Source: Cymodocea nodosa (Eukaryota > Streptophyta > Magnoliopsida > Alismatales > Cymodoceaceae). Taken from it: 64,000 nucleotides of DNA. The position numbers and the translations under genes were made by a program. The notes beneath the pieces were generated by a model. It did not search any database. It was not told the DNA's origin and saw only the letters and a list, made by a program, of their open reading frames with translations. The stretch spans positions 7,194,501 through 7,258,500 of the forward strand of contig CM072347.1 in assembly GCA_036874045.1 (NCBI GenBank), written 5' to 3'. Of the stretch, positions 17,110 through 64,000 are shown piece after piece. The first letter of the stretch is position 1. The number at the start of each line of letters is the position of its first letter.

Positions 17110-17110
17110 G

Positions 17111-33064: not shown

Positions 33065-33253
33065 GCTTAATCCACGAACTAACCTCATTGAGTTACAGTT
33101 AACTCAACGGACTAGCCTCGGTTACTGTTTCTAACTCAACAAACTAATCTCGTTGAGTTACAGCTACCTCAACGGACTAGCTTCGTTGCCTATTTGCTAA
33201 CTCCACGGACTAACCTCGTTGAGTTACAAATAACTCAATGGAGTGACCTTATA
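33065..33253. repeat. Palindrome-rich array of 'gttgagtta/taactcaac' units
   Basis: About eight alternating direct and inverted copies of a ~10-bp core (taactcaacg / cgttgagtta) spaced ~20-30 bp, able to form hairpins. It is repeated at 40431-40600 and, shorter, at 62280-62410. The copia insertion site TTATA is at its right edge and one breakpoint of the tandem duplication is at its left edge. Confidence 0.75.
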
Positions 33254-34877: not shown

Positions 34878-34882
34878 TTATA

Positions 34883-42210: not shown

Positions 42211-42224
42211 CTCCCCCTTTTTGA
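42211..42224 (-). other. Polypurine tract
   Basis: AAAAAGGGGGAGAT on the minus strand, directly followed by the LTR start TGTTGAG. Confidence 0.9.
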
Positions 42225-42709
42225 TGTTGACAAAACCATATTAAATCAATTATGAAATATGTTGAACTCAACAAAGCACCTTCGTTGGGTTAACTTTTAA
42301 TTCAACAAACTTATTTGTTGACTTAAGTTCACTTAAGCTTATTTCTATTGTTTGTGTAAATTTTACCTCTCAGAACTAAAACTCTCAGATGTCAATAATT
42401 ATATAAGTATCAGTTTTCTAATTATCATCTGTCAGATTACAATAACCATTTAAATAGCATCTCCTTTTATAATATATATATGCAATTAAGATCATAATCA
42501 TCTTTTTATAATATTTCTCCCCCTTTTTGTCATTAATCAAAAAGATAATTACAGAGAATATATATATATATATAAGAGATATAATTACAACAACTCTTTC
42601 TGTAAACAAGAATAATAATTGAAGACATTTACAGAAAAATGTATTGTTCAATCAAATCAAACAAGTAATACAAACATTACATTTTGTATTCAGAAATAGA
42701 CAAAAACAG

Positions 42710-44994
42710 TTATCGACCCCACCTAAGTATATCACTTATAGCATTACATATTTTATCTCCTAGATGCCTAATATCATTTCTGATGTCATTAAGCACTACA
42801 TCTAAGTCAGGAGGTAGCTGGGTTTGCTGTTCTGCTTGAACTGAATAACTATGTTGTTGTTGTTGTATATGGTCTATATCAGGTTGTTGTTGTCGTTGAG
42901 GTTTATGCATGGCCTGGAATTTTTGCAAATCTTTGACACTAAATACTCTCATGCCTTTAGTTTCAGAGGGCCAGTCAGATAAAGTCAATTGGCTTGCAAG
43001 GATTCTACATACAGCATCACCATAAAATAACTTTGAACTCATATGCTGTAGTTGAGACATAAAAACATCAAACCAATTTATTTGAATTCTATTCAGCAGG
43101 CCATAAGTTGCATATAAATAGCTTCTGCTGACTTCCAAATTGTGTCCAACTCTTTGAAATAAATTTGCATGCAATATATTTGTAATAAATCTTGCCTCTG
43201 CATTCAGATTTTCCATTAATCTCATTTCAGAATATACATCTGGAATTTTTGATAAAGACTGAATGCTCCATTCCAGTTGTCTTATTATGTCAAATCTGTT
43301 GGTAACAACAATACCTTCATTCTTTAATCCTAAAACTTCAAAAATTAACTCAGGAGACAATATAAACTCATGTTCATTTATTTGAGTTTTCAGAAAATTT
43401 CCATTCTTGTCTAGATTGCTATAAAAAGCTGCAATAAGCTTTGTGTATGCTTCCATTTCGTTCCTACTGGCAAGAATTTAATGAGGCCTTGAAACTCAAA
43501 CAGATCTCTTATTTCCATCAAATTTCTAAATTTTATTGGATGAGCATGTAGAATTTGACATGTAATCAGATTATTGTATTTCTGCAATGCTTCTTCAGAT
43601 CTAAAATGAATTGCATTACCTTGAATTTTTAATATTATACACAAAGAAGGTGATACCTGAAGCCATGATTCAGAGTTTAATTCATCTTCAGGAACCTCTT
43701 CTTCAAAATGAATGTCATGTTGTTCCTCTTCCAAAATATTATCTTGAAGCTGCTCAAGTAAGCTTGATTCTTCAGCTTCAACAGTGTTAGGAACATTGTC
43801 AATATGCTCAACATTCATCTATTCAGTCTCTATAGAATGTTTAGAGTACAATTTTTCCACAAATTCTACAACCGGCGTATCTGTCTGTAATTGTTCATTT
43901 TGTTCAACAGATAATTCCATTGATTCATACTGTGAATTCTCAAACTCTACTTCTATAGATTCCGTAGAAGGCTGGTTAACTTTTAGCTCTTTTGGAGTCT
44001 TAACAATTTCAATATCTGCTACTCCAGACAATTCAGCCTTTGAACTAGTTACTGCTTCAATATTGTCAATTATATTTGCAATAACTTGTTCAATGTCAAG
44101 TGCCTGATGCTTTGATTTGTCAATTTCTGCATCATCAAGACTTGTACTAATAGAAAAACTTGAGCTCATATTTGACTTGGATTTCTTCTCAAGTTTTCTA
44201 GCAAGGGAAAATAAAGTCTCATTATCTTCATCAGTTTCAGTGTGTTCAAAACTGATGAGTTTATCAAATGCACAATAAGGTACAATGTCTAGACATACAT
44301 TGTCCTTTGGAAATAAATTTTCATCTGATTTTCCTTTTTCAATAGACTTTGTTTCATTAGACATAATTTTTCTAACTTTCCTTCTTCTAAAACATTTTTG
44401 TTTCTCCTTTTCAAGTATTGCTATTTTCTTTTCAAATTGCTCCATAAAAGTTTTCTGCTTTAATTCTTCTAAGGCACTTTCTATTGCAATGGCCTTTCGA
44501 AGACTGTCAACTTTTATTTTGTCTACAGCAATATCTGATTCTACTTGTTTTGAATATAAAGGAGTAGGGATAGCTGATTCATGCTCTTCCTCAAATGCAT
44601 GTAATCTTGTACTGTTTATAGGAGTTTGAGGAGTTCTATTTGATGAACCTACACCTTTTTCCAAATATTTTGCATACTGTTCCAAAAATGCAATCTCAGC
44701 ACATTTCATTCTGTATTCTCTATCAAATTTACTACGAATACCCATGTATGTAATATTTGCATCAGTATGTTGAAGTTCTTGTCTAACTTCATCTATTATT
44801 CCCTGAGGAAAGAAGTAATCTCTATAAAGTTCTGCTAACCTTTTGTCCACTCGAAATATTTTCTTGAACCAAGTACGTGGAACTTCATCATTCTCTATTT
44901 CTTTTCCTTTTGCATCTCTTCTGCTTTTGCCTTTTCCTCTGCCACGACCTTTGTAGAACTTGGAGACCATCATCGCAGGTTGTAACAGCAACAA
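42710..44994 (-). pseudogene. 3' ORF of the copia element (ORF1-like), near-intact
   Basis: The minus strand starts in a basic stretch (KGRGRGKGKSRRDAKGKE), then 'VPRTWFKKIFRVDKRLAELY' and 'IIDEVRQELQ', then a long charged linker with predicted coiled coil (codons ~170-220) and acidic segments. The conserved core begins near codon 480: 'LFEFQGLIKFLPVGTK', 'AAFYSNLD', 'LSPELIFEVLGLKNEG', 'EARFITNILHANLFQRVGHN', 'LYATYGLLNRIQINWFDVF', 'KLFYGDAVCRIL'. A Q-rich tail and a 'LNDIRNDIRHLGDKI' end follow. It is broken only by one TAG (43819-43821) and one frameshift near 43460. It sits where SIRE-type elements carry an env-like ORF, but no signal peptide or membrane segment is evident. Function unknown. 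Confidence 0.75.
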
Positions 44995-44999
44995 GCGGG

Positions 45000-45490
45000 A
45001 AAGATTTTCTTGACAAAGTTTACAAATAACCTAAGTCCCCGTGTAATAAGTGTTTAAATAGGGTTTTTAGGCGTATAACTCAACGTGAAGAGAAGTCGGG
45101 TTTAGAAATTAAATAAATATTGAATAAAGTTTATTCAATCAAGGTACTCGAAATATTCGAGTATAACTCGTTGAGTTAACCAACCTAATGAGTAAAACGC
45201 TGTCTAGAGGCAGTTTTACATGTTACCTTATCTAACATAACGTCTAGTTAGTACACCAATTTTCAGATGCTTCCAACTGAAACGTTCCGAAAACAACACA
45301 CATGCTAAACTTAACATTATCTTGAGAACATTGTAAACTATTTGAACATCTTGTCCTTCGAATCTAAAATAGTTTATTTTTATTTTTAAATTATTTCATC
45401 AAGATTTTAAGAGGACATTAATTCAGATTTACTAAGATTTGTATTCTAAATTATATTAATCTGTTTTCGACATTGTTAATCCTCCCCCTA
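45000..45490 (-). repeat. Internal PPT plus LTR-like segment before the 3' ORF
   Basis: On the minus strand 'ttgtagggggaggatt' (about 45480-45495) precedes a ~490-bp stretch with 'cgttgagtta'-type motifs and a TATA-like 'gtttaaatagggttt' (about 45055), ending at the ORF start. The order PPT, LTR-like, ORF repeats that of C1 (7374-6434). It may be a relic LTR and promoter. Confidence 0.5.
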
Positions 45491-46550
45491 CAAATATACT
45501 TCAAATATATTCAATCAAAATACAAAATATACTTGTAGTGACAATAGATGTTAAGTATAACTATACTTTTACATTTTCTTTTCAAAGACTTCTGTTATCC
45601 TGACATCATCAAAAATGATTTCCAGAATCAATTCCTACTGTATATGAATCAAAACACAACTTTGAACTCAATTCGATTAATTCAAGGAGAATAAAAGAAT
45701 GTATCTCAAATAAACGTTTTCAAAAGTACTAATGTTGATTCAATAAATCAGTAGTCATATTGGTATAAACTATATGCAATTCAAAGATATCTATAATTAA
45801 TGAAACAACTTTTTCTTTTCAAAAACAGTAAATATTGATAATTTTCTTTAAAAGTTAGTTTGAAAAGCTTGAATCATACAAGAGCTTTCTAATGTACCCG
45901 TGTAATGAGCTTTCAATCAACAATCCCAAATCTGATCAGGACCTTAGGTTGCCATATTTAAAGAATCCTTTTTCAGGACAACAATCCTTACATACCTATC
46001 TGCTCAAGTATAAAAGGCTCGTGATCAAACTCATCAATAAACTCTCAAAGATTTTTACTTTGTAAGCACTTTTCATTTTAAGCACAGTATATATGTATTC
46101 CATTAATACAGATGCAATAAAACACAAATCTCATACAATTTTTACTTCTATGATTGTACTGAGAATATGAATCAGTTTCAATAAGCTTATACTTTTGATT
46201 AACAGTTTAAGATGAGTTACATATAACTTATTATACAAGTTTAATCAATTAAGTCAAATTTATGCATGATCATATGCATTTTCCTTGATTCAAAGAAAAC
46301 ATTTAATCAAAATTTCAGAATGTCAGAAGTATTTAATGTTTTTCATTTACACTTCCACTTAAAATCATAAAAACTATTAAAATTGATAAACTACTTAAAA
46401 TCAATAAGATACTACTATGATTTTACAATAAATACATAGTATCTTAAGCAGCAGTTTAGATATTACTTTAGATATTTATAATAAGTATATAATATCTATG
46501 AGGTGAACAACATCATCAATAATATTTATCTTTTTATGTGGAGTTTAAGC
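45491..46550 (-). repeat. H-type 3' UTR sequence inside the copia element
   Basis: Aligns with 57700-58640 and 28380-29290 of the H elements. Blocks include 'cttgaatcatacaagagctt', 'gagctttcaatcaacaatcc', 'ccttacatacctatctgctc' and 'ttaatacagatgcaataaaa'. In the H elements this is the 3' UTR just before the PPT and LTR. Confidence 0.7.
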
Positions 46551-46554
46551 ATTT

Positions 46555-47372
46555 TACACATCACATAGCCTACAAATATCTAAATTTAATCTAATGTTAC
46601 ATAATGTATTTTCGTCTAGAGGTTTTGTAAATATATCAGCTAATTGATTTTTACTAGTCACAAATTCTAATTTAATTTTTCCTTTAATTACGTTATCTCT
46701 TAGAAAATGATGTCTAACCTCTATATGCTTTGCTCTTGAATGTAATACAGGATTTTTGGAAAGATTTATTGTAGAACTACTATCACAATAAATCTCAGTT
46801 GTATCATAAGATAATCCAAAATCTTCTAAAGTTTGCCTTATCCACAGAATCTAAGTGCAACACAGTGCAGCAGCAACATATTCAGCTTCTGTAGTAGAAA
46901 GTGCTACACAGTTTTGCTTTTTACTAAACCATGACACTAAATTATTTCCCAATAATTGACATGAGCCACTGGTACTCTTTCTATCAGATTTAGATCCTGC
47001 ATAATCAGCATCAGTATATCCTATAAGATCTATTGAACTATCCTTAGAATAATACAGTCCAAAATTTTTAGTTCCTTGTATATATCTAAATATTCTTTTA
47101 ACTGCAATTAAGTGTGATTCTTTAGGATTAGATTGAAATCTAGCGCAAACACACACAGCAAACATAATATCAGGTCTACTAGCAGTCAAATAAAGTAAAG
47201 AACCAATCATACTTTTGCATTTTCTTTGATCTATAGATTTTCCTATGTCATCAATATCTATCTTTAAAGTAGTACTCATAGGAGTTCCTCGAATCCTTGT
47301 ATCATTAAAATTAAATTTCTTAAGCATTTCATCTGCATATTTTTCCTGATTTAAAAATATACCTTTATCCAT
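46555..47372 (-). pseudogene. Copia pol tail: end of RT and RNase H
   Basis: The minus strand opens 'MDKGIFLNQEKYADEMLKKF', the last part of copia RT, then 'YLTASRPDIMFAV', 'DADYAGSKSDRKSTSG' and 'VALSTTEAEYVAAALCCT' (RNase H active-site region D...E...D). A single TAG at 46851-46853 interrupts it, after which 'ILWIRQTLEDFGLSYDTTEI', 'CDSSSTINLSKNP' and 'LADIFTKPLDENTL' complete RNase H. The RT catalytic YVDD block is not present because the region upstream is deleted. Confidence 0.88.
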
Positions 47373-47610
47373 TTATGACACTCAGCAAATTAAAACCTAG
47401 GTTTTCTACAAATAGTACATTCGAAATAACAAAAGTAGGAGTTATTTGAACATTGCCCATACCTATGATTTTATCTTTGCTTTTGTTTCCAAATGTTACA
47501 CTTCCTTTCACGGTATTTGTAAAATTTTGTAATAGACTTTTTTGTCCGGTCATGTGACTTGACGCTCCACTGTCCAAGATCCATTTTGATGTTGTTTCCT
47601 CCTGCAACAC
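47365..47610 (-). pseudogene. Copia aspartic protease, truncated by a pol deletion
   Basis: 'SKWILDSGASSHMTGQ' contains the D-S-G catalytic triad of copia proteases with the usual ASSHMTG follow-on. It ends with 'NVLFVENLGFNLLSV', the normal lead-in to GAG-pre-integrase. There the sequence jumps, in another frame, to the end of RT. Confidence 0.85.
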
Positions 47611-47613
47611 AAA

Positions 47614-49846
47614 TTAAGAAAAACTTTTTCTTGGTACCCAATGTTGTTGAGGACCAAGTTCATTAAACGCATATTTCTTCTTTTTATTTAAAAATAGATT
47701 AACATTATCATTTATATTCTTATTAGTTGTAAGTACTATTGATTTATCATTAGCTTCATACTCACATATAGCATTATTGCTTTTGCAATCATTCTTTTTG
47801 TTTTCAGATGTAGTATAATCAAGACCAAACATATTTTTATCAAATGTTAATTTATTTTGGTCATGCTTATACATTTCTGTAAGTTCATACCAAGATTTTC
47901 TACTTGTATTAACACTTTCCGTACGTACAAAATCTTTTTCTGCACAAGAATTTTTTGTTTTATCACATGTAGAATGAGTAATTGGTCTAATACCAATGTA
48001 TTGAATTACATGCTCAGGTTTTTGAATTTTTAGTTTACTACAATTGTCTGAAATTTTAGAAACATTAGAAACTGAATTTCCAGAACAAGAAACAAGATTT
48101 TTAGAAACATTTATAGTCATGTTAGAAGTACAATTTGACAAATCACATTGATTTATATTATTACTACATGATTCATCCCTTGAAGTACCTACTTCTACAT
48201 ATTTATTACCTTGTTTCAATAAAAGGAATTTTAGTCTTAGATTTACTTGAACTACAACTAATAAATCCTTTATTGGCTTGAGATTCAGGATATTCAGGAT
48301 AATCAAATCCTAAGCCAAATTTATAAGACACCGCAGGGGTACTAGTTAGTTTGTCTAACTTAGTTTGACTTAAATTCTATTTCTCAAAGGTAGAATTTAA
48401 ATCTTTCTCTCTAAGTTTTAATTTATCTATCTCTAATTCAAGTTCATTTATATTGTTTCTCAACATTTCATTTTCAGATTCTATCTTTAATTTTTCAGCA
48501 TTTATATTCTGTATTTGTTCATGCAAGATACATTCATTAAATCTAAATTTTTGCAAATCTCTAGCATGATTTTCATTATCACATTTAAACTTTTCTAAAG
48601 TAGTAGACAGGAAATAATTTTCTTCTTCCATAATGGATGAAGATTCTCTAATATTATTATTTTCCAGTTTACCTACTTTATGTTTTTGTAATAATGCATG
48701 ATAAGCACATAATAATTCCTCAAAGTTGAAATCTGAATGACTTTCAGGATCAGATATTACCTTAGACTCATCTGCCATGAAGCACACATGAGCAACGTCT
48801 TCTAACTCTTGTTCTCCTTCTGAATGTGAAGATTTTGATGCTGATTCCTCAGATTCAGACTCTTCAGACGTGTCATCCCAAGTGACCTTCAAAGCCTTTT
48901 TCTTGTAAAACTTTTTCTGAGTTTTTTGAGCCGTCTTCTTCTGATTTGTCCTACTTTGCTTTTCATTTTTCCTCATAGGACAATCTAGAGAAAGATGTCT
49001 AGGTTTCTTACAATTGTAACATACATACTTTCTGGATGAAGAATTCTTGTCATTCAATGATTTTGACGTTGAGGGTTTATCATTTTTGTTCCTTTGTTGT
49101 TTCCTAGCTTTCCATGCTTTCTTGAATTTCCTAGTCAGCAAAATCAAATCCTCATCAGAATTAATTTCGAAGGCTATTTCTTTCTTCATTTTTAGTTTGT
49201 TGTGACTTAGTGATTCATTTAATTGAACTTCATAAGTTGTTAAATTTCCTATAAGTTCATTCATAGTATAAACATTTAAATCTCGTGATTCCTCAATTGA
49301 TGTTACTTTCTAAGACCATTTAGAACTTAGGGATCTAAGAATTTTCCTCACCAAATCCTTCTGTTCAAAATTCTTTCCTAAACATTTTAAAGAGTTTATG
49401 ATATCAAGAAATCTGGAAAACATCTCAGAAATATTTTCGTCTTCATGCATCTTAAAGAGTTCATACTTATGAATCAACATGTTTATTTTTGTCTCTTTAA
49501 CTTGAGAAGTACCTTCATGTGAAACTTCTAATGCATGCCACACCTCATAAGCAGATTTATATGCCGACACTTTATTGAACTGTTCATAACTCAATGCACA
49601 AAATAAAATATTTAAGCCCTTAGCATTTAGTGTTTCATTTTCTTTTTCAATAATTGTCCAAGTATTATAAGGAGTAGTTAACAGAGTATATAATTTAGAA
49701 ATCATGAACCATAACTTATGATCTATTCTTTGAAGAAAAATAGTCATCCTATATTTCCAATATTCAAAATGTATTCCATCAAATAAAGGAGGACGATTAA
49801 GATTTTGGCCTTCATATAAAGAAAAATTACCATTTCCAGTAGCCAT
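47614..49846 (-). pseudogene. Copia Gag of the 40601-51635 element
   Basis: Starts MATGNGNFSLYEGQNLNRPP (49846). The UBN2-type core follows: 'FDGIHFEYWKYRMTIFLQRI', 'LNAKGLNILFCALSYEQFNK', 'EVWHALEVSHEGT', 'DLVRKILRSLSSKWS'. After a TAG (about 49310) the frame continues with 'YTMNELIGNLTTYEVQ', a CCHC knuckle C-Y-N-C-x4-H-x4-C (about 49025-48985), an acidic linker (EESESEES) and a long coiled coil to about 48377. A second TAG and one frameshift (about 48210) precede the 'LGPQQHWVPRKSF' end. Closely related to the C1 Gag. The lesions are few. Confidence 0.88.
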
Positions 49847-50033
49847 TTTACCTTAGATTTTTCAACCTATTTGATTTTAAACAGTCTAAAAACTTTAAAA
49901 CAACTTGAGCCTTAAATCAAGAAAGTTAAACGTATGCTCAGATATTAATTTCTGTTTAAAAACAAGGAAGGTAGAATAAGCAATGATATTAAATAAGTTA
50001 GTATCGATTTTATATCAAAGATTATTAACCAAT

Positions 50034-50044
50034 CTCTGATACCA
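50034..50044 (-). other. Primer-binding site (initiator Met-tRNA)
   Basis: TGGTATCAGAG on the minus strand, two bases after the 5' LTR end. Confidence 0.92.
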
Positions 50045-50046
50045 CT

Positions 50047-51635
50047 TGTAGGATCGTATGGCTACACAAGAGGGGGGTGAATTGTGTATTTTTAATATTT
50101 TCTGAAATATAATTGAAACTTTAAAACTCAAAAACAAGTCGAGACATTGTTTTCATAAAATCATTTTTATTCAAGGTTTCAATTACAATATACAATTCAA
50201 TTCTCCTCAGAAATTGTAGATGCAATTATATTTCAATACCATGTATCATCTAAACAATTTCATAACTACAAACAGAGAAAACTAATTTGCGGAATTTAAA
50301 ACTTTTCTCCCTGTTTGAGATCTTTCTTCTTCTTTTTCTTCTTCAGCAATTCTTCAGTGAAGAATATCTTGTCTTTTCATGCTTCACTGAATTTGCTTTC
50401 TTCTGATACTTCAAATCTTCAGCGACATAAATCTAACCTTTTCTGCTTCACTGAATTTTCTTCCACTTGTGAGATTTTTCCCGAAGAGGTGTTTTTGATC
50501 CCTGAAAAAGATTTTTCTTTTGGTGTGCAGGGATGGTTTGATCCTTGAAAATATTTTTCTTTTTGGTGTGCAAGGATGGTTTGATCCTTGAAAAGATTTT
50601 TTGTTTTGTGTGCAAGGATAAATTGATCAACGAGAATTCTATGCCTTTTATAATGTATCTTCATTTCATGCATATCCTTCACGTTTAACCACTACCAGAT
50701 TTCCACTTCTCCACGTCTTTTCTTTTTTCTTCATCGAAACACACACGTTCTAACCCATGTTTATATTTTGAATTTTCTTTAATCATTAGTCTTGGATCTC
50801 TAAAAAATTTCCTGAAAATAAACTTTCTTGTCCAAAAATTTTTCATCAGTGTAATAAGAAGTCGTTACTTTAATGTTAACTAAATGAGTAACACAAGTAT
50901 ATATATATAACTTAACATTTCTAACTTAACGAGTTCACCATGTACTATTTCACGTGACAAGTACTGTAGCTAACTCAACGAATTAAGTCCGTGGTGTTAT
51001 GCTATCTCAACGAACTATCTCCGTTGTGTTATGATAACTCAACAAACCAGTAATAAACAAATGTTTTTATAATAAGAATTTTACCACGTGCAAAAATAAC
51101 AACTTAAGTTTATAACGCTAACCTAACGCGTTGCCTTAGTGTTCAATATAGCAACTCAACGTGTTTAGTTATGTTAACTTAACGAGTTAAACATGTGCAC
51201 CTCATGTGATACAATACAACATTCGTGACTTATAATTTCATCACGTGTATAACACTAACTTAACGAGTTCGTCTCTTCTTTTACTCACTAACTTAACGAG
51301 TTATCACGTGACCTATTTTAACCTTTAAGCCTCTAACTTAACGAGTTCTCACGTGACGTCTATACAAACAAAACTCTAACTTAACGAGTTGTCTAAACGT
51401 GCACTGTTCATGCTTTTCAATAAAAACACACGTTAACTTAACGTTTAGCTAAATGAGAAATTAATGCAACAAAATGACTAGTTATTAACTTCAGATCCAA
51501 TACAGACAAGTATTTATATTAGTAAGCTTTTTCTGTATTAATTGATGATTTTAATTTCTTTTCACAAGCAATAGTAATTGAGCAAATATGATTATTTTCA
51601 TTTAGCACACATCATCAAAACAAAAATACTCAACA
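50047..51635 (-). repeat. 5' LTR of the 40601-51635 element
   Basis: 1589 bp, ends TGTAGGATCG (50047) and ACTCAACA (51635). It lacks 32 bp present in the other family members at about 51413, a loss bounded by TCATG repeats. TATA region 'tatatatatac' (about 50897-50910, minus). Three minisatellite units at 50500-50620. Confidence 0.93.
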
Positions 51636-51640
51636 TTATA

Positions 51641-52155
51641 TTTTATTATTGACCTCGTGGAGTTAAGGTTAACTCAACGAACTTACTTCGTTGAGTTAAC
51701 ACTTAGCAAATTTTTTTAAAACTTACTCCTCGTATTAACTTCTACATATTTTTTCTTCTTTTTTTGCCAACTTAAGAAAAGTTAAATATATGTCATTAAT
51801 GCAGTGTTCTAATTTAAACTCATTTAAATCTAAACATTATATGCATATTTAACTTACAGTTCATTTCCTATTATGTAGAATTTACATTTTACTATTCATT
51901 ATGCAGATATTTTTAGGCATTTACAAGCATTGTGCATTTAACCATGTCATTAATAAAATTGTAAAACTTTTAAATAGTCTGCAAATCTTTAAACAGTCAT
52001 ATAATATTCAATTCAACTTTAAATCATTCATTCACAATTACACAAATTCAGAAACATCTGAAATTCAAACATTCATTTATATAAATAGTTTACATTTACA
52101 TATAGTCAGGTATTTATTTATTTTTTCTTTCAATACAAGTAGATGAACAATACAT
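51641..52155. other. Spacer between the copia site and ORF1, copy B
   Basis: Near-identical to 34883-35397. No gene. Confidence 0.5.
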
Positions 52156-55100
52156 TCAATCCTTCTTCCTAAGTTCATTTACTTCCTTCTAGAGCTTTTC
52201 TAATTGTTGTTCTAATTGATTTATACGTTCAACAACTCCTATAATGTCTCTAGAAGGTCCAACTATCTCTACAACTATAGCATTATAATTTTTATACTCC
52301 TTCACTGAAATGGCTCTAGATCTTATCCTCTTGAATGTCTATTTCGTGAAGTCAATATTGTCCACCATTAGTAGTGGAATTAGATCTCCATAAAATAATT
52401 TTTTTTGTGCTGCTCTCAACTTGGAGATAAAAACTGAAGACCAGTTGACTCTAATCTTGTTCACAACTGCATATGTTGCCCATTTAACAAATTGACTTAA
52501 TTCTATATCATGGCCTTGTCATTGCTAGACATTTTTAATCAAAATGTTAGCTACCATGTGTGTTTTACCATTTAAGTACTTCAATCTGTTTAATAGTGGC
52601 ACACTAGGATTGATAGCTAAACAGTCTTTAATTTCTTGTTCTATCCACTTGACAATAGTTGTATTTTTCAGGATTTCTATTCCTTCATTTTTCAATCCAA
52701 AAATGTTGTGGAGAAGCTCTGGTGTTATCTATACATTAGCTTGCTCCACACTAGAAATTGAACTTCCTTCTTCCTCTCTCAAATTGGCATAAAAGCAAGA
52801 CACTAAATTTTCATATATTGCATGCCCTCTTTGTTGAGAAATAAATTACAGTAGACCTTGGAACTCAAATAATTCTTTAATGTCATTCATGTCGTCCTAG
52901 TTTATTGGTCTACTATATATAATATCATAACCCCTAATCTCTTGATATTTATTATATACTTCCTAACTCCAAAAGTATACCTCATTTAGAATTGTTGCTT
53001 TAGCCAGATCAGGAATTTGGATTTGTTGCTCCAATGGGGTTTGTTCTTGAATTTCTTCTTTAGTTTGCTGAACTTAAATTTGTTGGAAATTGTTTAGAAC
53101 GAAAAAGTGCATAATATTAACGGTTAAATGATGGTTAATTGCATAATATTTAGCTTATCATATGAGAATTAAGCCATTATGTTATAATTGCACTGTTATA
53201 TGCTTTAATGAAAGAATCTGCATAATTTCAGGGAATTAATGTTAATTTAGTACATTTCTAAATTGTTGGTAAGTTGCTGGTTTTTAATTCTTTAGTATCC
53301 GAATTTTCTGTTATTTCAAAGAGTTATATTGCATGTACTAGACAGTTATATTTTAAATGCTAAAAGAATATTTAAGTGAATAGTATCAACTAGTTGAGTT
53401 AGTGTTCTTTTTGTTAAAAGATCATGTGCCAAATCGTTGAGTTACAGGTTTAAAGGTATAAAAAGATCATGTGAGAACTCGTTGAGTTAGTGAGTGAAAA
53501 TTGTAAGATATATATTTGAACTTGTTAAGTTAGAATGATGCATGTGTTGAATTTAAAATACTTTATTATGTCATGTGAGATGCACATGTTTAACTCGTTA
53601 AGTTAGCATAACTAAACATGTTGAGTTACATGAATACACACTAAGGTAACGCGTTATGTTAGCAACTTATTTCTTTATTGCACGTGTTTTATAGTTAAAT
53701 CAACGAAGTAAGTCTGTTGAGTTATCTGTAACTCCATGGACCATTTATTTTCTAATATGACATTGTAACGGTTACAGAAACAAGACATTGAAGGAAAGCC
53801 ACGATTGCAGATATCACGCTGGAATTCACTCGTGGAAGGGAGAAGAAATCACCATCGTTGATTTGAATGAAGGAAATTCAACTGATCATTTAAAGCAGAA
53901 GCAGTTACTACTGAAGAAATATAAAAGAAGAGGAGAAAAAATGAAGGAGAGGTTGGCGATGTGTGGCAGTGTGTGTAAAGGTGGAGGACCGCGCTAACTA
54001 CAGGCAGCGTCGGAAGTTCACTGAATCATCCACACCATCACCAACATTACCATAATCACCAACCATCGGAGGTTTGTAAGGATACTTTCCTGATGTCGGG
54101 TCAATTTCAAGTCAAACATGGTGCTTGACAACCATTGTGAGGAGTGATCGCGTCGCGGGAAGGGAAGCCATTTTCACCAAGCATCGACTCATATCTTAGG
54201 AGATCGTAAAGCTTCTAGCCTTGGTTTCAGGTTGATGCCAGTATGTTGAAGAGGAGATCATCTTGCAATTCTGGACTCGCAATTCTATAGGGAGAGGAGA
54301 TAGAATTGTAAGTGATTAAGTTTTTAGTAGTGTAATCACGTAGCATGTAGTGACGGAAGTATTTACTATCGATAGAGATTTTTACATGTCACCTTTCGCC
54401 CATTTTCATGAACATCTTAAAACAAAAAATACCAAAAACAACTTATCTAAGTTTATATTTAGTATTTAAGTATTGTATTGCTTGTTTTATATTGTGATTA
54501 AAGTTATTATTGTTAGTATTGTGAATGTTTTGTATTTATTTGATTCAGAAAATAGAAAATAGTATTACAGTTTACTGAAATCGATTGTTCTAGATACTTA
54601 AAGATTTTAATAGTTACTATTTGAAATATTTGAATGTTAGTGTTGCTTAATGATAAATCTAATATTCACTAGCATTAAAGAGCTCAATTGATGTTATTTA
54701 CAATTTGTGGAATCACCCAATGGTTGGCCAAATTCCTCTGTAAATAGCTGTATTAAACTGAAAAGATAGGCTCGGGGAGTTAACTTAAATCTACGAGATT
54801 AGTTTGTTGTGTTAACTGTAACTCAACGGAGGGATTACTAAACACATTAAGTATATTATAAAAAATGGAACAATATACAATTCTTACTCAATTTCTCTGT
54901 GGGATCGACCTGTACTTGCACACAAATACAATATACATTGTGCACTTGCAGTTAAAATACAAATTGGAATTAATATCTAATTTATGTGAAAGGTTGTTTG
55001 TTTACTTCTAAAAAGGAATTACTAATAAGCATAAAGACAAATTAACTAAGTTAAAAATAGAAGTTAACAAATACAAGTTATTTAGTGTTGTTGCTTGGGA

Positions 55101-56429
55101 ACCAATACAAGTTCTCTAGTGCCACCTAAAGCAACTTGAACAGAAATGATCCGAAGATTCTTGCATTTCAGCTCCTCTTTCTATTTATGGTGGAGAGTTG
55201 GCAGAACTCTCCACTCATCTTTCTTGAATTCTTTCAATTAATTGTTGAAGAGTCTCTCCCTCTTCAATGGAATCTGTTGAGTCATTTCTTTCTTGTTCAG
55301 TATGTATTTGTTCAGTTTCTTCTCTTTCTTCTTCCTCCTAACTACCAATCTGCATTGTCATTATTCTTTCTGATTCTGTGGTAGATTGGGATGGAGTCAC
55401 GGGCAAATCAACTTCTACCCTAACTTCAGTTTCTTCTATTTGTACAGGCTGTAGACTAATTTCAGCCTATTTTCCTTCTCCTCTTTGCTCTTGCTGCTGT
55501 TGCTCCTGCTCCTCCTTAGATTCAGATAGCAGGTCTACAAAAATGGGCTCTTGAGGCCCTACTGATATTTTAAACTCAGATTTAATCTTTGCTTGAGCTT
55601 CAAGTACTATCTCTTTTCCTTTCCTTCTTCTAAATAACTGTGACTGGTCTTCCTCTTCCTCCTCTGAAATTAAATCTACAAACCTAGGCTCTGTAGGCCC
55701 TCGAGCCACAAGTACTAGCTCTTCCTATTTTACTTTTTCTAAAATTACCAGTCTCGAAGGACCAGCTTTAGTTTTTCTTAGAGCCATTGATCTGGCTACT
55801 TCTTGATGTTGTTTTACTTTGATTTTGTATTAGACCCTCAACTTTTCTTCAGCCCACTTTTTCTTTATAACATCATACAAAATATGTGTCTTGGCCATAG
55901 CCATTTCTTCATTATCTCCTTGGTCTTTTGCTACTTTGACCAAGCTAGCAAACTCCTTGTCTTCTTCTTCAGTTCTCGACCAAGCAAAAGTTACACGTGG
56001 TAATGGTTTTGTTGGTGGAACTGAAGGACCTACTTGTTCTACTACTGCAGTTAGCATTTATGCTACAGGTTCTTCTATTGCTTTCCTCTATTACTCCCAG
56101 ATTTCCCATTGAGCATGTCCAGCAATATATCTTACAAACTAGAGTCGTGACTTGCGCTAGATCAATTCTAAGGTAACCTCATTGTTTGGTCTAATTTTTC
56201 TTTCTCTATTCACAACAACTTCTGTTGCTACTTTAATCCTCATTTCCACAATTTGAGGTATTTTAATATCTAAATCTACTAAAACTTTTCTCCAGTAGAA
56301 GATGTCAGATTCTACCTTTTCTAGTTCTTTCTCTTGAGTTGTGTTCCTGATCTTTTGTCTTGTATGCCATTCTTCTAATTCTCTGAGAAATCTCGTGGTG
56401 TCAACTTCCTCCTAGAATTCTAGTGTCAT
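52156..56429 (-). pseudogene. H ORF1, duplicated copy B, split by a solo LTR
   Basis: Same structure as 35398-39681 and near-identical to it. It has an MTLEF start at 56429, then 'VTFAWSRTEEEDKEF' and the doubled FVDL(I/L)SE acidic linker ending at 55143. The solo LTR 53091-55142 follows, then the conserved C-terminal half to the TGA at 52156-52158. Shared stops with copy A show that decay mostly preceded the duplication. This copy continues upstream to the LTR at 57269-57543, so it is the complete parental arrangement. Confidence 0.65.
53091..55142 (+). mobile_element. Solo H-family LTR inside ORF1 (copy B)
   Basis: TGTTTAGAACG...TTGAACA with GAAAT target duplications at 53086-53090 and 55143-55147. 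Near-identical to 36333-38395. A 12-bp 'aattcaccaaca'-type unit present at 37291-37302 is absent here (about 54040). TATA box TATAAAAG at 53920-53927. Confidence 0.87.
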
Positions 56430-57135
56430 CTTGACTTCGTGGTGTGATAGAATGGAATAGAATTACTGTGATCTTTACTGTTCTAAGTTCTAAATGATTC
56501 TGTGGATAATGCCCCTAAATCCTAAGTTTTAGTATAAATAAACCCTAAGTTTTTGGCAAGTAATCAAGTCATTTTCCTGTGTAAACTCTCGCTATCTCAC
56601 TCACCTCTTCGTAGAATTACGGTTAACTCCACAGACTAAGTCCGTGGACTTAACTACAATACTCCATTGAGTTACAGTTAACTCAACGGAGTAAGTTTGT
56701 TAACTTATCCTAGACTCAACGAAGTAAGTTTGTTGAGTTAAGCGTAACTTAGTGAACCTCTTGTAAAGTTATAACTAATAAAAATATTTATAATAATAAT
56801 TTTTAATTCGGTCTAGACTAAAGAATTTCTGGTCTAATTAACTCTTAATTGTTCACCCTTTTAAAATTTTGGTCAAACTGTTATATTTCTCAGTTGAACC
56901 GAAATTAAATACTTTTTTATTACTAGTTGAATCGATACCATATTTCGGTAAAATCGACATTTTTACTTAATATAATATATATATATATATATTATGTTTC
57001 AGTCAGACTAATGGATCCTTTCGGTGTGACCATAACAATATTTTCCTTTTAATATATGTTTCGGTAAAATTGATAATTTCTTTTGGTTGAACCGTGACTA
57101 AATTTAGAATAAGTTTTTTTTTAATTAATAAAGCT
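56430..57135 (-). other. Leader upstream of ORF1, copy B
   Basis: No gene. Contains taactcaacg-type motifs (56620-56760) and a TA microsatellite (about 56968-56992, a few units longer than in copy A). Confidence 0.5.
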
Positions 57136-57268
57136 CTAATAGTCCTCTACTCGTATTTCTTCTATAATTCCAAATGACTTTTTTGGAATTTTCAGAATAG
57201 GTCTAAGTCTTTGTTCATTTACTTTAAATATATTCTGATTTTTAGGATTTTCAATTTTAATAGCTCCA
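57136..57268 (-). pseudogene. Ty3/gypsy integrase C-terminal tail
   Basis: The minus-strand reading 'HGAIKIENPKNQNIFKVNEQ' followed by RLRPIL matches the last residues of Athila/Tat-type integrases (HGAVEIENPKNG-x-FKVNGQRLKP). It lies directly between the LTR (57269-57543) and the ORF1 leader. The rest of pol is not in the window, so this is either a relic of a pol deletion or flanking sequence into which the LTR element inserted. Confidence 0.7.
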
Positions 57269-57543
57269 TGTTTGGATCTCCAGCACGACACTAGAAAACT
57301 TGATTGGTTACCCAACAACATGCTAGAAAAAACTTGGATTTGTTAACTTCAATTTTTACTTAGTTAATTTATCTTTATGCCTATATTATTGAATTCCGTT
57401 TCAGAAGTAAACAAACAACCTTTCATACAAGCATATAACAATGCACTTATAACAAAATAGCTTAATTCTCATATGATAAGCTAAATATTATACAATTAAC
57501 CATCATTTAACCGTTAATATTATGCACTTTTTCATTCTAAACA
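57269..57543 (-). repeat. H LTR with a large internal deletion, shared by H elements 1 and 2
   Basis: On the minus strand the first ~115 bp (TGTTTAGAATG...) of the H LTR are joined directly to its last ~150 bp ('gttgtttgtttacttctgaa' to the PBS-like motifs and CCAAACA). About 1.75 kb is missing between two TGAAAG repeats (about 57425). It follows the PPT of H element 2 and precedes the integrase tail and ORF1 of H element 1. Confidence 0.75.
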
Positions 57544-57556
57544 CTCCCCCCATACC
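57544..57556 (-). other. Polypurine tract of H element 2
   Basis: GGTATGGGGGGAG on the minus strand directly before the LTR start TGTTTAG. The equivalents at 27417 and 28207 are shorter. Confidence 0.75.
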
Positions 57557-59341
57557 TAAATTTTGCTAGTCCCTTAGCAAACTAAGATCTAATTAATTAG
57601 TCTTTCTAAAAGTGCTAGAATTAATTCTTCCTTTTTTCTTCTGTTCAGCATAAGAACTTGTATTATTATATAGATATTCTGTATGTTTCAGTAATCTGTC
57701 TTAACATCGTTTTCTCCTCTTCAATCTGCAAATATACTTAGAACATATGCAAATTACATACAAAGTATATCATCATCACATAGGTATTTAATTATATTAT
57801 CGTTTGTTCTTCTTTTCATCATCTGTCATCCTGAATTTTCCAATAAGATTTCTAGAAGAAATTTCAACAACATACGAATCAAAGTACAATCCAATTCAAT
57901 ATGATTAAGACAAGTAGAATAAAGAATTGTATCTCCATACAAACTTCAAAGGTCAATTCTAGATTCATATTTTAGCAATTTTAGATAATAGAAAATATAC
58001 TCGATTCATAAGATATTTGTATTTCACAAAACACTTGTATCTTTTCAGAACAGTATATGTATTTTTGTACTTTAAAAGTTAATTTGACAAGCTTGAATCA
58101 TACAAGAGCTTTCTAATGTACCCATGTAATGAGCTTTCAGTCAACAATCCCAGATCTGATCAGGATCTTAGGTTGCCAGATTTCAAGAGTTCTTTTTCAG
58201 GTCAACAATCCTTACATACCTATATGCTCAAGTACAAAAGGCTCGTGATCAAACAAGTCAATAAACTCTCAAAGTTTTTTTTTTTAAACAATCACACTAT
58301 ATATGTACGTATTTCATTAATACAGATGCAATACAACACCAATCTCATATATTCCTGCTTCTATTATTTACTGAAAATATGAATCAATATCAATAAGCTC
58401 ATACTTTTTCTGTAGTTTAATAAGATCTACACATAAATCATTCTACAAGTTTAATTAGTCAAATTAAATGTATCTTTGATCATATGCGTTTCATTTAATC
58501 TAGAATTCACATCTCAACTCTTTCAGGACTTCAGATAATTTACTGATTTTTCATTAAACACTCTGATTTCATTTTAAAATAGTGAAACTATTAAACTCAT
58601 GAAATTCAGAAAAAAACATAAGATACTATATCTAGATTTGCATAAATAGTAAATTCTATATCATCTTATATAGCCTTCTAAATATAACATTCAAGCAGTT
58701 ACAGTTCGTAAAAATTTTACAGTCTCAATTATCAAATAGTTATAGCAAATTCATAAAAAAAATTTTCAATTTCCACAAAACTTTGCAGTACCATTCTAAT
58801 TCCTTTACTTAACAAACTTACATGGTTGTTACTTTAATTACCTCCCCCCATACTTACATTTTGTATTGTCCTCAATGTAAAAGATTTGACAATAAATACA
58901 ATAATTGTAGCAGGCATGAATATTGTTTCGTTGACTTAGCACCTAACTCAACGAATGAATTTAAATCTAAATTCAGCATAAGTAATCGATTACATACCTT
59001 GTTTCATTTGTATCTCCTTCTGCATATTCTGAAAAACTTTTCATGCACAGATAAAAGTAGAATATATAACAAAATAACATTTAATAGATATTGATAAATC
59101 AGTGTCTTGTGTGGAACCTAGGCTCCTATGCCTTTGGTGGCTCACAAGCAAGCCAGTTGGTTTCCTAGCACAGATACCAACAAATTAGATTGATATTTTG
59201 TTTTTTTTTGTTTTTTATAAAATAAACTAAAACTAAAATTTTTCTAAAAGTAAATGTAGAAAACACACAATATTACAAGCACAAAATCACAGCTTAAGAA
59301 CATGATTGAAAAGTAGAAACAAATGGAATAAATGTGTTAGT
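57557..59341 (-). other. 3' UTR of H element 2
   Basis: AT-rich with no gene. Aligns with 27430-27844 and 28640-30019, and part of it (57700-58640) with 45550-46400 inside the copia element. A single open frame at 58116-58382 is not a recognised protein. Confidence 0.55.
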
Positions 59342-60430
59342 CTAAGCAAACTTTTTAGGCATAATTCTTCTTGCTATTAATTCTGTTTTAATGTAGTTCG
59401 TGTTCCTTCTTAATTTGTAAACTTGCAATATATTATCAATGCTAAATACAAGTGTACTACCATTAATGAAATGAAATGTAGAGAGGGATCCTCTTCGGTT
59501 CCAAGATAATGTAGCTGTTTCTATTTCTACATCTATTTCAATATATTCCTCTTCCCACTTCCATTCATTTATGTCTTTCATGATCCATATTTGAAATTTC
59601 ATCAATTCATCCCACCATCTTATTAAACATAAAGTAGGATCATCATATTCATTATACCACATCCCTATTTGAATTTTATCAAATTCTGTAGATGGTGGTT
59701 TAGCTATTTCTCTCGGTGTAGGCAAAATTTCTATATATTCATCATAATTATCTATGCTTACTATGTATAAATCAGATCTAAATGCAACTGATATATTTGT
59801 GACTAGATATATATATCCATCAAGTATGACATGTATGCTGTTAATTAATGATTTCTGTCCTAGATATATCATAGTGTTTTCAGTCCAAGATCTATTCAAA
59901 AAATTATACACACTCAAGCATAAATCTTCATCCCAATTTCCTGTAGGTCTCCAATAATATAATTTTTCAGGAATGGTCGAATTTTTATCAAAAAATATTA
60001 ACGTTGACCCACAATTTTCAGTTGGTACTTCATATCTATTAGGTCTTCCTATATTCCATTCTTCTCTTGTGATAGGATTTCTAATCAAAATATCAGGTAA
60101 TAGAATTGCATGCCTTGGTTTGGTCTTGTATATAATTAATCCTTCATCCATCCCCATAATATGATCTATTCCTTCTAATGTATTGGGTGGAATTCCAGTA
60201 GTTTCTTCCATATTCAGATATTCATGGCTAATTGAACTATGATTAAATGACTTCCATAAAAATCCATCTCTAATTTTAGTCATTTTTGCAACTTGTAGTC
60301 CCTAAAAATATTTTTCTTTGACACAGTCTTTTATTTCCTTTGATACACAACATAGCCAGCATAGATCTCTAGCTGACAAGTTACTCAGTACTTCCCTTAG
60401 TGCATCCAGCGGTAATTGCATCAATTCCAT
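59342..60430 (-). pseudogene. F-box protein gene carried by H element 2
   Basis: Starts at the Met before ELMQLPLDALREVLSNLS (60430) and ends at 59342, 362 codons before the stop. F-box at residues ~1-45 ('LPLDALREVLSNLSARDL', CCVSKEIKDCVKEKYF). The C-terminal F-box-associated-like region includes 'LPDILIRNPITREEW', 'YYWRPTGNWDEDLCLSVYNF' and 'RWWDELMKFQIWIMKD', and ends 'ARRIMPKKFA'. A single in-frame TAG (60302-60304) where copy 1 has His is the only obvious lesion. Roughly 85-90% of residues match the copy at 30020-31158 by eye. It lies just downstream of gag on the same strand, within the element. Confidence 0.82.
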
Positions 60431-60599
60431 TTGTTGATTCTGTATAACATAAACAAAAATTTTAGTAGAGACAAAAATTAACATAACTACTTCACACCCT
60501 TGTGGAGTTAGGTCATAACTCAACGGACTAAGTTCGTTGAGTTAAGTACTAACTCTACGATACTATTAACTATAAATAAACTTATATATATATATAGTT

Positions 60600-61955
60600 A
60601 CTTCAGTTATACTACTTCATTCAGCTATCCTCCCAGAAGAGGTATCAATTTCATTAACAGTTCTATTGATAGGGTTAGGTATTGCTTGTATTGGCAATCC
60701 TCCAGTAGGTTTAACTTCCATTGATTCCTATCTAAATGATATGTTTCTATTTTGATTTTGAATTGCAGCATTTCCAAATACAAGATCCAGACGATTGTTT
60801 AATTGTTGGATTATCTTTTCTAATTTCTCTATTCTAGATCCTTGTTCCAGTAATGCTTCATAACTTATATTCTTCTCATTTATATTTTCTCCACCCTAGA
60901 AATTGTTGTTTCTCCAAGATAAATTTGGGTGATTTCTCCAATTAGGATTATAAGAATTTCCCAAGTTATCTCTCTCGTTTCTAGCATAAATAATATCTAA
61001 ATCATTTATGTTTGCATTTTTTCTGCTAGCTTTTGATTTAATGATAACTCTTCTATTTTCTTTGTTAATTCATTTAATTTTACCTCAAGCATAGTACTTG
61101 AATCTATTTCATGCATTCCTCTTGGCAATATTTTTTTATATGCAATAGCTTAAGCCGAATTTTCCCACTGTGTAGTTCTTTTTGCAAAGTTTTCTAAATA
61201 TGCCCATGCTTCTTCACTACATAACTTTAAAAATCCATTTTGACAAGTAGATTCTAATAAAGATTTTGTTGAAACATCTATGCCTTCATAAATTATACCT
61301 ATTAATTGTGCTTTACTCATTGCATGATGTGGACATTGATTCAGTAAATCTTTAAATCTTTCAAAATATTTCCAAAATGATTCACCCTATTTTTGGCTAC
61401 ACATTAATATTTCTTTTTTCTTTTTAATCATTTAATGTGTTGAATAATATTTTTTCAGAAAAATAGAGCAAAATTCAGTCCATGTAGAAATTGAATCAGG
61501 TGACAGAGTATATAACTATCTCTTAGCTATGTCTTTTAAAGTAAAAGGGATATATCTAAGTTTAATAGCATCTATACTCATGTTCGACATTTTCATCATT
61601 TGACAAACTTTGTTAAAGTCTCTAAGGAAATAGTAGACATCCTCTCTTTCTAATACATGAAAATGTGGCAATTGACTAATATAATTAGCTTTTAGTTCAA
61701 ACCTATCTCCCTCAAAGTTTGGCAATCGAATACATGAAGGTTCATCAACTAATTCAGGATATAGAATTTTTCCTAATGGTTTTTCTACTGGAGTAGCCAT
61801 CTCTACGTTCTCTTTTAAAGAAAGGTTAGCTACACCCCAAAGGATTTCGTTAAAGTCTAATTCAGAAAATGTTTCAGTACGCGTCTGTGTTGAATATTCT
61901 TAGGGAGGTGTTCTTACTAATCGTTTAGTACTAGGAGAATGAGTCCATGTGCTCA
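60600..61955 (-). pseudogene. Athila-type Gag of H element 2
   Basis: Starts MSTWTHSPSTKRLVR (61955), followed by several stops. The longest open part is 61800-61516, with 'RFELKANYISQLPHF' and 'IKLRYIPFTLKDIAKR'. After that come 'WTEFCSIFLKKYY', 'YFERFKDLLNQCPHHAMSK', 'GIDVSTKSLLESTCQNGF' and 'NFAKRTTQWE'. More damaged than the copy at 31300-32717. Again no protease or pol follows, only the F-box gene. Confidence 0.8.
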
Positions 61956-62921
61956 TAAATAAAATAGCAGAAGATTAATTATATACTAGTCTGAAGCTTT
62001 TCATTCAGTAAATATTTGTTGACGGATGAAGTTGAATCAGCTGCTTCTCCTTCCAGTTCCCCCAACGCATTCTCCTTTCTTTTAAAAGTGCTGGTAACTC
62101 ATAAATAACATTCTATTCTATATATATAATGCACATCCATAAAGTAAATAAATCTCGTTGCAAGAACGTGTCTTGTAACGTGCAGCGTGGTTCCTATTTT
62201 TATGGGTACGTGTACCACTACTAATTTAAAATTTTGGTAACCGCTAAGCCGACAAAGTTTCGTTCGTGGTTAAAAGAATAACCGTTCTACTTAATCCACA
62301 AACTAACCTCGTTGATTTACAGATAACTCAACGGAACAACGTCGGTTATTGTTGCTAACTCCACGAACTAACTTCATTATGTTACAGATAACTCAACAGA
62401 GTGACCTTATATTATTGACCTCATGGAGTTAAGTTTAACTCAACGAACTTACTTCATTGAGTTAACACTTAGCAACCTCTAAGTTTACTCCTCATAAGTA
62501 CCTCTATTTTTTTTTTTTCTTTCTCTCCTACACTCTACTAACTGAAATAAAGTTAAATACATGTCATTAATGCAGTATTCTAATCAAAATTCGTTTAAAT
62601 CTGAACATTATATAAATATTTAACTTGTAGTTCATTTCATGTTATGTAGAATTTACATTTTACCTTGCAGCATGCAGATATTTTCAAGAATATATTATTT
62701 AATCCTGTCATTCAGCAAATTGTAAATCTTTTTAAACATTCATGCATAATGTTCCACAAATTATATAACATTCAATATAGTTCATCCATTTCATCATACT
62801 AAACACGCATGAAAAATATATCTAAAAAACATATATTCATTCATATGAATAAATTATAGTACAATCTAATCAGATATTTTTCATACAAATATATACAAGT
62901 ACAAGTAGACGAACTATACAA
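61956..62921. other. Spacer of H element 2 with the uninterrupted copia site
   Basis: No gene. 62280-62410 is a shortened palindrome array. At 62404-62420 the sequence runs 'gaccttatattattgacc' without interruption, where the other copies contain a copia LTR flanked by TTATA. 62430-62900 aligns with 34900-35390. Confidence 0.65.
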
Positions 62922-64000
62922 TTAGCCTCTATTCCTAAGTTCATCTACTTCCTCTTGGAGTTTTTCTATTTGTTGCTCTAATTGTTCTATCCTCTCTACA
63001 TCTCCAATAATGCCTCCAGAAGGTACAGATACTTCAGCTGCAGCATAATTTCTGTATTCTTTCACTGAAATGGTTCTTGATCTTATCCTTTGGACGTCCA
63101 TTTTGTGAATCAATACAGTCTACTATCAATATAGGTATCAAATCTCCATAAAATAATTTCTTCTTTGCAGACTTCATCTTGGATAGGAGGACTTGACACC
63201 AATTAACTTGAATTCTGTTCACAACTACATAAGTGGCCCACTTGACAAATTGACTCAGTTCAATGTCATGGCCCTATCATTGGTAGACATTTTTAATCAA
63301 AATATTAGCTATCATGTGTGTTGTACCATTTAAATGCTTCAGTCTATTTAATAATGGCACACTAGGATTGATAGCTAAACTATCCTTGATTTCCTGCTCT
63401 ATCCATTCAACGGCAGTTGTGCTTTCCAAAATTTCTTTTCCTTCATTCTTCAATCCAAGAATGTTGTGGAGAAGCTCTGGTGTTATCTGTACATTAGCTT
63501 CCTCCACGTTGGAAATTAATTGTCCTTCTTCTTCTCTTAAATTAGCATAAAAGCAGGGTACTAGATTTTCATATATTGCATGCCCTTTCTATTGAGAAAT
63601 AAATTGTAGTAGACCCTGGAACTCAAATAATTCCTTAATTTCTTGCATTTCGTCCCAATTTACTGGTTTACTATATATGATATCATAACCCCTAATCTCT
63701 TGGTATTTATTATAAGCTTCTTGACTCCAAAAGTGTACTTCATTCAGAACTATTGCTTTAGTTGGGTCAGGAATGTGACTTTGTTGTTCTAGAGGGGTTT
63801 GTTCTTGATTTTCCTCTTCCATAAGCTGAACTTGAACTTGCTGAAAATGTTCTACAGATTCCTGAACATTTGCTTCTGCTTTTGTCTGTGGTGGTGAGCC
63901 GACAGAACTCTCCACTCTGTCTTGAAGTGTTTCATTAAATTTAGTCGAATCTACAAAGTCATTTTTGTCCATATGGACTTGTTCAGCTTCTCATTCAGTT
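62922..64000 (-). pseudogene. H ORF1 of element 2, C-terminal part (runs off the right edge)
   Basis: Minus-strand blocks in order: an acidic/Q-rich linker (63972 down to about 63780), 'FWSQEAYNKYQEIRGYDI', 'EIKELFEFQGLLQFISQ', 'ITPELLHNILGLKNEGKE', 'GTTHMIANILIKN', 'NRIQVNWCQVLLSKM', 'KLFYGDLIPILI', 'RSRTISVKEYRNYAAAEVSV'. It ends with a coiled coil 'IEQLEQQIEKLQEEVDEL' and a stop at 62922. Frameshifts or stops separate the pieces near 63590, 63280 and 63110. No solo LTR is inserted here, so it shows the original continuity across the site where 36333-38395 is inserted in the other copies. Confidence 0.7.

Follow-up and report, generated by a model that had tools for sequence, protein, structure and literature searches.

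LTR elements usually make Gag first and in excess, and an F-box protein normally links its target to SKP1 and cullin. In TR-GAG elements a gag gene lies between the LTRs and pol is not adjacent. For plant Ty3/gypsy elements the gene order is described as GAG-PROT-RT-RH-INT (PMC6317226), and accessory ORFs behind pol are described as frequent (PMC7264820). Diaspora is reported to hold Gag core, zinc finger, protease, reverse transcriptase (RT) and integrase in a single ORF, and its tRNA-Asp PBS begins 5 bp beyond the LTR (PMC1142308). Gypsy elements of orchids carry an AlkB m6A demethylase (2-ODD, activity tested), described together with a screen of 121 angiosperms (PMC9289625). In Thlaspi arvense, TaChr6G576 is presented as an F-box-family LTR-gene that was later tandemly duplicated (PMC8764390). 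Outside the retrotransposons, reports on the polerovirus protein P0 describe an interaction with SKP1 and AGO1 as its target, a target shared by the host F-box protein FBW2 (PMC6593998, PMC3588083), and VANDAL elements are reported to encode VANC anti-silencing proteins (PMC5735166, PMC10398659, PMC13317346). Among titles, abstract beginnings and selected main texts, supplements aside, no report was found of a multi-copy accessory F-box gene in an LTR element; what these sources describe is one F-box gene inside such an element (PMC8764390). The word 'F-box' is absent from the main texts, as distinct from the supplements, of PMC7264820, PMC6317226, PMC9289625, PMC11963269, PMC3726574, PMC13317346, PMC6431247 and PMC4093653, and F-box genes and LTR elements are treated apart in what was seen of PMC6135824.

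The window, the 64-kb stretch of DNA analysed here (G000:C21:7194501-7258500, in a genome of 374.6 Mb and 28 contigs), has 31% GC, is plant-like and is made of nested repeats. It holds two related copies, copy A (28082-33176) and copy B (57420-62400), which are 84% identical across 5.1 kb and have their genes on the minus strand (Table 1). The initial annotation took them for gypsy-like elements with an F-box gene instead of pol. We consider it probable that they belong to a large Ty3/gypsy (Athila-like) family with a split Gag, in which a capsid-type gag at the 3' end directly precedes a host-type F-box gene. At the sequence level this draws on the gene order in the copies read, the high copy number, the LTR, the PPT, the target duplication, some open F-box frames and, in comparisons between subfamilies, a moderate constraint on the F-box. 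Compared with the first reading, the position of the capsid gene behind pol makes the structure stranger, whereas the accessory ORF behind pol makes it more ordinary. With Athila, Calypso and Diaspora (Ty3/gypsy, OTA) the element shares a large LTR, a PBS-like site just past the LTR, the order PROT-RT-RH-INT, a G-rich PPT and an extra ORF behind pol. It differs from them in that the capsid gag lies behind pol, apart from the zinc knuckle, and is followed by the F-box gene. The label 'Athila' is presumptive, being taken from features of gag and pol and from the structure. Athila is separated from Ogre and Retand by having no second RNase H between RNase H and integrase, and Pfam found none there in the 649-aa RNase H-integrase ORF of L030.

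Table 1. Features in the window, with positions counted from its first base
Feature	Position	Strand	Remarks
F-box gene, copy B	59342-60430	-	362 codons + stop, start ATGGAATTGATG; in-frame TAG 60302-60304
gag/F-box spacer, copy B	60431-60628	-	palindrome 60516-60544, then 3' splice-site-like TTTTTGTTTATGTTATACAG abutting the F-box start
capsid-type gag, copy B	60629-61959	-	no zinc knuckle; in-frame stops and a frame break
palindromic repeats 5' of gag, copy B	62295-62464	.	
PF20167-like (Transposase_32) ORF remains, copy B	62922-63990	-	reaches window end; E=8.1e-4, 19.8 bits, below the Pfam cut-off of 45
3' non-coding region, copy B	57557-59341	-	
polypurine tract (PPT) GGTATGGGGGGAG, copy B	57544-57556	-	
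3' LTR remnant, copy B	57269-57543	-	275 bp, middle missing, joined to next element
integrase C-terminus, copy neighbouring copy B	57130-57270	-	85% identity to L030 integrase; adjoins that copy's post-pol region
post-pol region, copy neighbouring copy B	55144-57129	-	
F-box gene, copy A	30020-31158	-	single frame break near 30310-30331, end shifted
gag, copy A	31369-32723	-	three open pieces
copia LTR insertion, copy A	33256-34877	.	between PF20167-like region and gag
PF20167-like region, copy A	34883-36332	-	by similarity to copy B and copia ORFs
solo LTR of F-box element family	36333-38395	+	2,063 bp, TG...CA; 5-bp target duplication GAAAT at 36328-36332 and 38396-38400
post-pol region, copy A	38401-40420	-	last ~47 nt = integrase C-terminus
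palindrome ACTCAACGRACTNARYCYGTTGAGTTA sites	690-718, 29634-29662, 31239-31265, 33132-33226, 36938-36966, 39876-39992, 60516-60544, 62436-62464, others		

Both genes of the pair are recognisable by their domains. In copy A, Pfam detects the F-box (PF00646, E=4.2e-9) in 30310-31206(-) and Retrotrans_gag (PF03732, E=3.9e-6) in 32148-32717(-), and better preserved copies elsewhere in the genome give a 363-aa ORF with PF00646 at E=2.2e-10 (L036; 40.4 bits, above the cut-off of 20.5) and a 423-aa open gag ORF with PF03732 at E=7.2e-20 (L010). The open piece of copy B at 59342-60283 has no Pfam match by itself, because the F-box is located ahead of the TAG. These data bear out several points of the initial annotation: the F-box gene lies 3' of gag on the same strand in both window copies, the gap being about 200 bases; no match to protease, RT or integrase was found between the two genes in either copy; and the F-box precedes PPT and LTR, as seen in copy B, where GGTATGGGGGGAG is directly followed by TGTTTAGAATG at the junction (57556-57533). 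The near-open frame was also described correctly, in that the TAG of copy B and the frame break of copy A are both real. Capture of the F-box before copies A and B split, likewise proposed there, is supported, as is its position inside an LTR element. The C-terminal 300 residues of the F-box protein matched no Pfam family. A search of a 5.8-billion protein set (with one protein and with an alignment of 7) gave no homologues; this set seems poor in plants and is uninformative on origin. No match was found among PDB sequences or plasmid records, and no host parent gene appeared in a genome search that scored the best candidates, a list filled by element copies. The AlphaFold model from seven F-box sequences was unusable (pLDDT 36).

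In the window both copies lack pol apart from integrase ends because copy A is truncated, ending within the last integrase codons at 40420, where a copia element lies, and copy B is cut by the window end inside its PF20167-like ORF. The LTR has TG...CA ends and a 5-bp target duplication, and the PPT lies directly before the 3' LTR, as in LTR retrotransposons. The segment 36333-38395 and its inverted copies had been considered as a TIR DNA transposon; this was dropped in view of the TG..CA ends, the 5-bp duplication and the direct flanking copies, which identify an LTR. The stretches 33256-40420 and 50049-57170 form a 7.2-kb duplicated block, 96% identical. Both carry the identical nested solo LTR with its target duplication, and the block therefore reflects a segment duplication and not two insertions. 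In copy A a head-to-tail duplication (27055-27835 and 27844-28625, 96%) spans the junction of 3' region and LTR.

For the complete element, 20 loci of 10 kb each around the gag/F-box unit were examined. None of them holds a full LTR pair (one, L011, has a pair of 150 bases) and most are alike nearly to their ends, so the element must exceed 10 kb. A PPT-like tract adjoins the LTR start in 17 of the 20. The copy on C1 was resolved from 30 kb (L029, L013, L030), and in gene direction it consists of LTR, a zinc-knuckle leader of about 0.56 kb, protease, RT, RNase H, integrase, a spacer of about 2 kb, a PF20167-like ORF, capsid-type gag, F-box, 3' region, PPT and LTR. In L030 the Pfam matches follow the order PROT-RT-RH-INT (RVT_1 9e-13, RT_RNaseH 4e-33, rve 4e-16), with the protease (Asp_protease_2) at 22.4 bits, slightly under the cut-off of 24.3. 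By arithmetic estimate the C1 element measures about 13 kb internally and 17 kb in total. It is flanked by two direct LTR copies, the 5' one shortened by rearrangement, which are 93.2% alike across the 1.1 kb compared; the insertion is therefore not recent.

The pair of gag and F-box belongs to a high-copy family. With 59342-61955 as query, all 40 scored places (the best 40 of 5,878 candidates, window included) match at 93-100%; the match covers practically all 2,614 bases in 39 of them and 2,540 in the remaining one. This joint query favours places carrying both genes. The F-box protein of copy A matches at 132 of 132 scored places (of 6,286 candidates) with 82-100% identity. The arrangement is thus found genome-wide, and the possibility raised in the initial annotation that it is limited to these duplicated copies does not hold. 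The matched part is free of stops at 14 of the 132 F-box places, copy A included, and contains stops at the other 118. In each of the six that were read out of these 14, the F-box frame is open from MELM; it ends at a stop after 363 aa in L036 and after 354 in L038, and in the other four it is still open at the end of the stretch. Among 22 copies screened, an ORF of more than 319 aa in the F-box region occurs only in L027 (348 aa) and a gag ORF of more than 400 aa only in L010. The gags beside open F-boxes have stops in both cases read. Four copies on one chromosome (L015, L017, L018 and L022; G000:C18, 3.87-5.18 Mb) are 98-99% alike, far closer than others, and may have arisen by large-scale duplication.

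The initial annotation named dN/dS between element copies as a check. The result is divided: values lie below neutral in the six between-subfamily pairs that were simulated, and there is no signal among close copies. Neutral simulations (200 each, transition bias allowed) were run for these six of the 28 copy pairs, in whose labels WA and WB stand for copies A and B. For WA-WB, L033-WB, L033-L034 and L033-L038 the w of 0.43-0.53 was reached by 0/200 simulations each (median 1.13-1.14), and for L035-L037 and WA-L038 w was 0.62 (P 0.005) and 0.68 (P 0.02); the neutral median across the six pairs is 1.10-1.14. Copy A against 18 others gives an F-box dN/dS of 0.60 in the right frame versus 0.97 and 1.00 in the wrong frames. 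Over all 28 pairs the right-frame mean is 0.59 (0.32-1.09) versus 0.73 and 0.92, and with one wrong frame at merely 0.73 the separation is modest. It is little in a simpler first estimate for the F-box body (0.41 versus 0.44 and 0.51). The gag has an in-frame mean of 0.67, with one wrong frame at 0.68, and the 3' region gives 0.81-1.20. Among the close copies (19; three near-duplicates dropped) the right-frame non/syn ratio is no different from that of the wrong frames or the 3' region. A count of shared gag stops among them was left out because the frame break in copy B makes the frame unreliable. The substitution patterns argue moderately for purifying selection on the F-box between subfamilies, and together they may be read as constraint during spread and free decay afterwards.

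The missing signal among close copies would also fit a different explanation, in which F-box and 3' gag are passive cargo of a chimeric element that arose when two elements and a host gene recombined and that is spread by an intact relative supplying proteins in trans. It would agree with the predominance of F-box places with stops, with the common nested and rearranged copies, and with the very large number of pol relatives (14,060 first-look candidates, of which 68 integrase places were scored). However, cargo should not show an F-box dN/dS under neutral simulation in the six pairs, nor would one expect the stop-free fraction of the F-box places, that of the integrase places (15 of the 68) or the retention of PPT, PBS-like site and spacer signals. 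We therefore regard passive carriage as unlikely, and prefer a gene retained by the element.

A gag-only, TR-GAG-like family in which the F-box replaces pol, as the initial annotation proposed, would be in line with the two window copies, which lack pol apart from integrase ends. It would also be in line with the outcome of probing next to three open F-box copies from other subfamilies (L033, L034, L036): at the offset where integrase was predicted, none of the three probes contained it, two being without match to the references used and one showing an inverted LTR. The window copies are accounted for by the truncation and the window end, however, and longer copies have protease, RT, RNase H and integrase upstream of the pair, the complete order being present in C1. 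Integrase coding sequence lies upstream of gag/F-box in nine of the nine loci, out of the 20, for which upstream DNA was examined (C1, C15, C13, C11, C7, C5, C19, C2 and C3, in the last as a rearranged piece). A query of 6.3 kb taken from L025 and reaching from F-box to integrase had 24 scored places; 16 of them, including the query locus itself and the four C18 copies that are 98-99% alike, have integrase-coding DNA on the expected side, and in the other eight it was unmatched. At five places (C1, C2 and three on C18) leader and F-box matches lie on one strand with 11.29-11.31 kb from the F-box end to just inside the LTR, so the order with pol first and gag/F-box last has multiplied. Judged from this coding order, the pair of gag and F-box occupies the 3' part of the element, after pol, the F-box elements differ from TR-GAG elements by their upstream pol, and the TR-GAG-like reading is refuted for the loci examined; for the family it is highly improbable. 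That an ordinary host F-box gene stands by chance beside unrelated gag debris, as might be imagined since F-box genes are numerous in plants, can practically be dismissed given the genome-wide copies, with both genes together in 40/40 scored places (a count that the joint query favours) and, in most of the 20 loci, the unit flanked by the post-pol region on one side and PPT/LTR on the other.

The preferred reading, a family with a split Gag, depends on what precedes pol. In C1 the leader after the PBS-like site encodes MTYAYAQRFLKPVVSICEFCNSEGHDISDCLKLRR, a CX2CX4HX4C knuckle, and the leader of L029 has the same motif in a reading frame with stops, so that the CCHC motif is present in 2/2 leaders read. 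It occurs in 0/24 downstream gags (20 loci, both window copies, L039 and L041). The Pfam score of the C1 knuckle is weak (zf-CCHC_2, E=0.23), and the zinc-knuckle call therefore rests on the motif. A 1.8-kb query consisting of protease edge, leader and LTR end was compared with the genome, and the best 40 of 6,066 candidates were inspected. This ranking favours query-like places, and 5' capsid copies could exist lower among the candidates. In 34 places there is a single colinear match into the LTR, five more reach the LTR edge, and the remaining one ends 107 bases short of it. Since colinearity extends across the leader, from the protease side as far as the LTR edge, in 39/40 places, a capsid gene of 1.3 kb does not fit ahead of pol there. 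The Ty3/gypsy arrangement with GAG ahead of PROT is not what was found: the capsid-type gag lies behind INT and the CCHC-motif leader stands alone in front. It looks as if Gag is split, with a zinc-knuckle leader ahead of pol and the capsid gene relocated behind it. A capsid gene behind pol would, if true, be a departure from the usual early and abundant production of Gag in LTR elements.

Several signals may serve expression of the 3' genes. A U-rich run ending in AG lies ahead of the F-box ATG, the AG being kept in 23 of 27 copies in which the site was located (in one further copy it was not located). A 27-base palindrome lies about 100 bases upstream and, allowing up to four mismatches, is found before the F-box in 20/20 loci, before gag in 17/20 and after integrase in 17/20, and also in the LTR. 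The RNA of the gag/F-box spacer folds better than shuffles (z -2.4). Splicing is said to occur in env-class plant elements and internal initiation in Grande, and separate expression of gag and F-box by either route is possible in view of these sequence features. The dispersed palindrome ACTCAACGRACTNARYCYGTTGAGTTA gives 34 matches at 21 sites of the window versus 0 in 100 shuffles; it occurs in non-coding parts and LTRs of the F-box element family, and an unrelated copia element has it in its LTR as well. At the other end of the element, TAGCGCTGTTGCTGGGGA after the C1 LTR differs at 3/18 places from the tRNA-Asp PBS. Inspection by eye shows the PBS-like unit caagttttctagcgcNgttgctgggga in two or three repeats at the end of the LTR in L030 (4800-4950) and L029 (1540-1640).

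For the F-box gene in its multi-copy setting we suggest the following scheme. Gag and F-box would be produced from a sub-genomic RNA that arises by splicing or by internal initiation; the AG-ended, U-rich acceptor-like site and the conserved palindrome point to such an RNA. The F-box protein would bind host SKP1, its C-terminal part would redirect a host protein to the proteasome, and the redirected degradation would help element RNA or particles to persist. The F-box protein is likely, as predicted from its domain, an SCF adaptor retained as accessory gene. By analogy, the protein that it would remove may be a silencing factor or one concerned with particles or RNA decay; the role against silencing factors mentioned in the initial annotation is speculative. 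Polerovirus P0 and other viral F-box proteins would be comparable, as plant parasites with an F-box or F-box-like motif, the likeness being one of supposed function. The orchid AlkB elements, as described, are likewise multi-copy gypsy elements with a host-type regulatory domain fixed in an additional ORF, a 2-ODD demethylase there and an F-box here. VANDAL elements, as described with VANC, also combine an element-coded accessory gene with a short motif repeated in non-coding parts, but are DNA transposons, unlike the F-box LTR element. TaChr6G576 differs as a single gene, not described in its source as the accessory gene of a multi-copy element. It is conceivable, with low probability, that the lineage combines a split Gag (a nucleocapsid-type knuckle before pol and the capsid behind) with a fixed host-derived SCF adaptor acting as anti-silencing or particle-regulating factor, a counterpart of P0, in a module expressed apart from pol under a palindromic cis-motif. 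The element may steer the protein-disposal system of the plant while spreading. Accessory genes kept by plant retrotransposons reveal host controls that need to be overcome; where a high-copy gypsy family has fixed an F-box gene, the ubiquitin system is indicated, and the gene offers a testable candidate for element-made protein degradation.

The copia element of the window (40603-51640, LTRs 50049-51635 and 40603-42208) has behind its pol a 403-aa ORF (43819-45030) and a PF20167-like ORF (42710-43818, under the Pfam cut-off). Its segment 45440-46414 shares 74% identity with the F-box element's 3' region, as if the copia and gypsy superfamilies had exchanged 3' modules. At 17024-17610 of the window, Arg/Ser-rich ORFs overlap on both strands, unlike the AT-rich surroundings.
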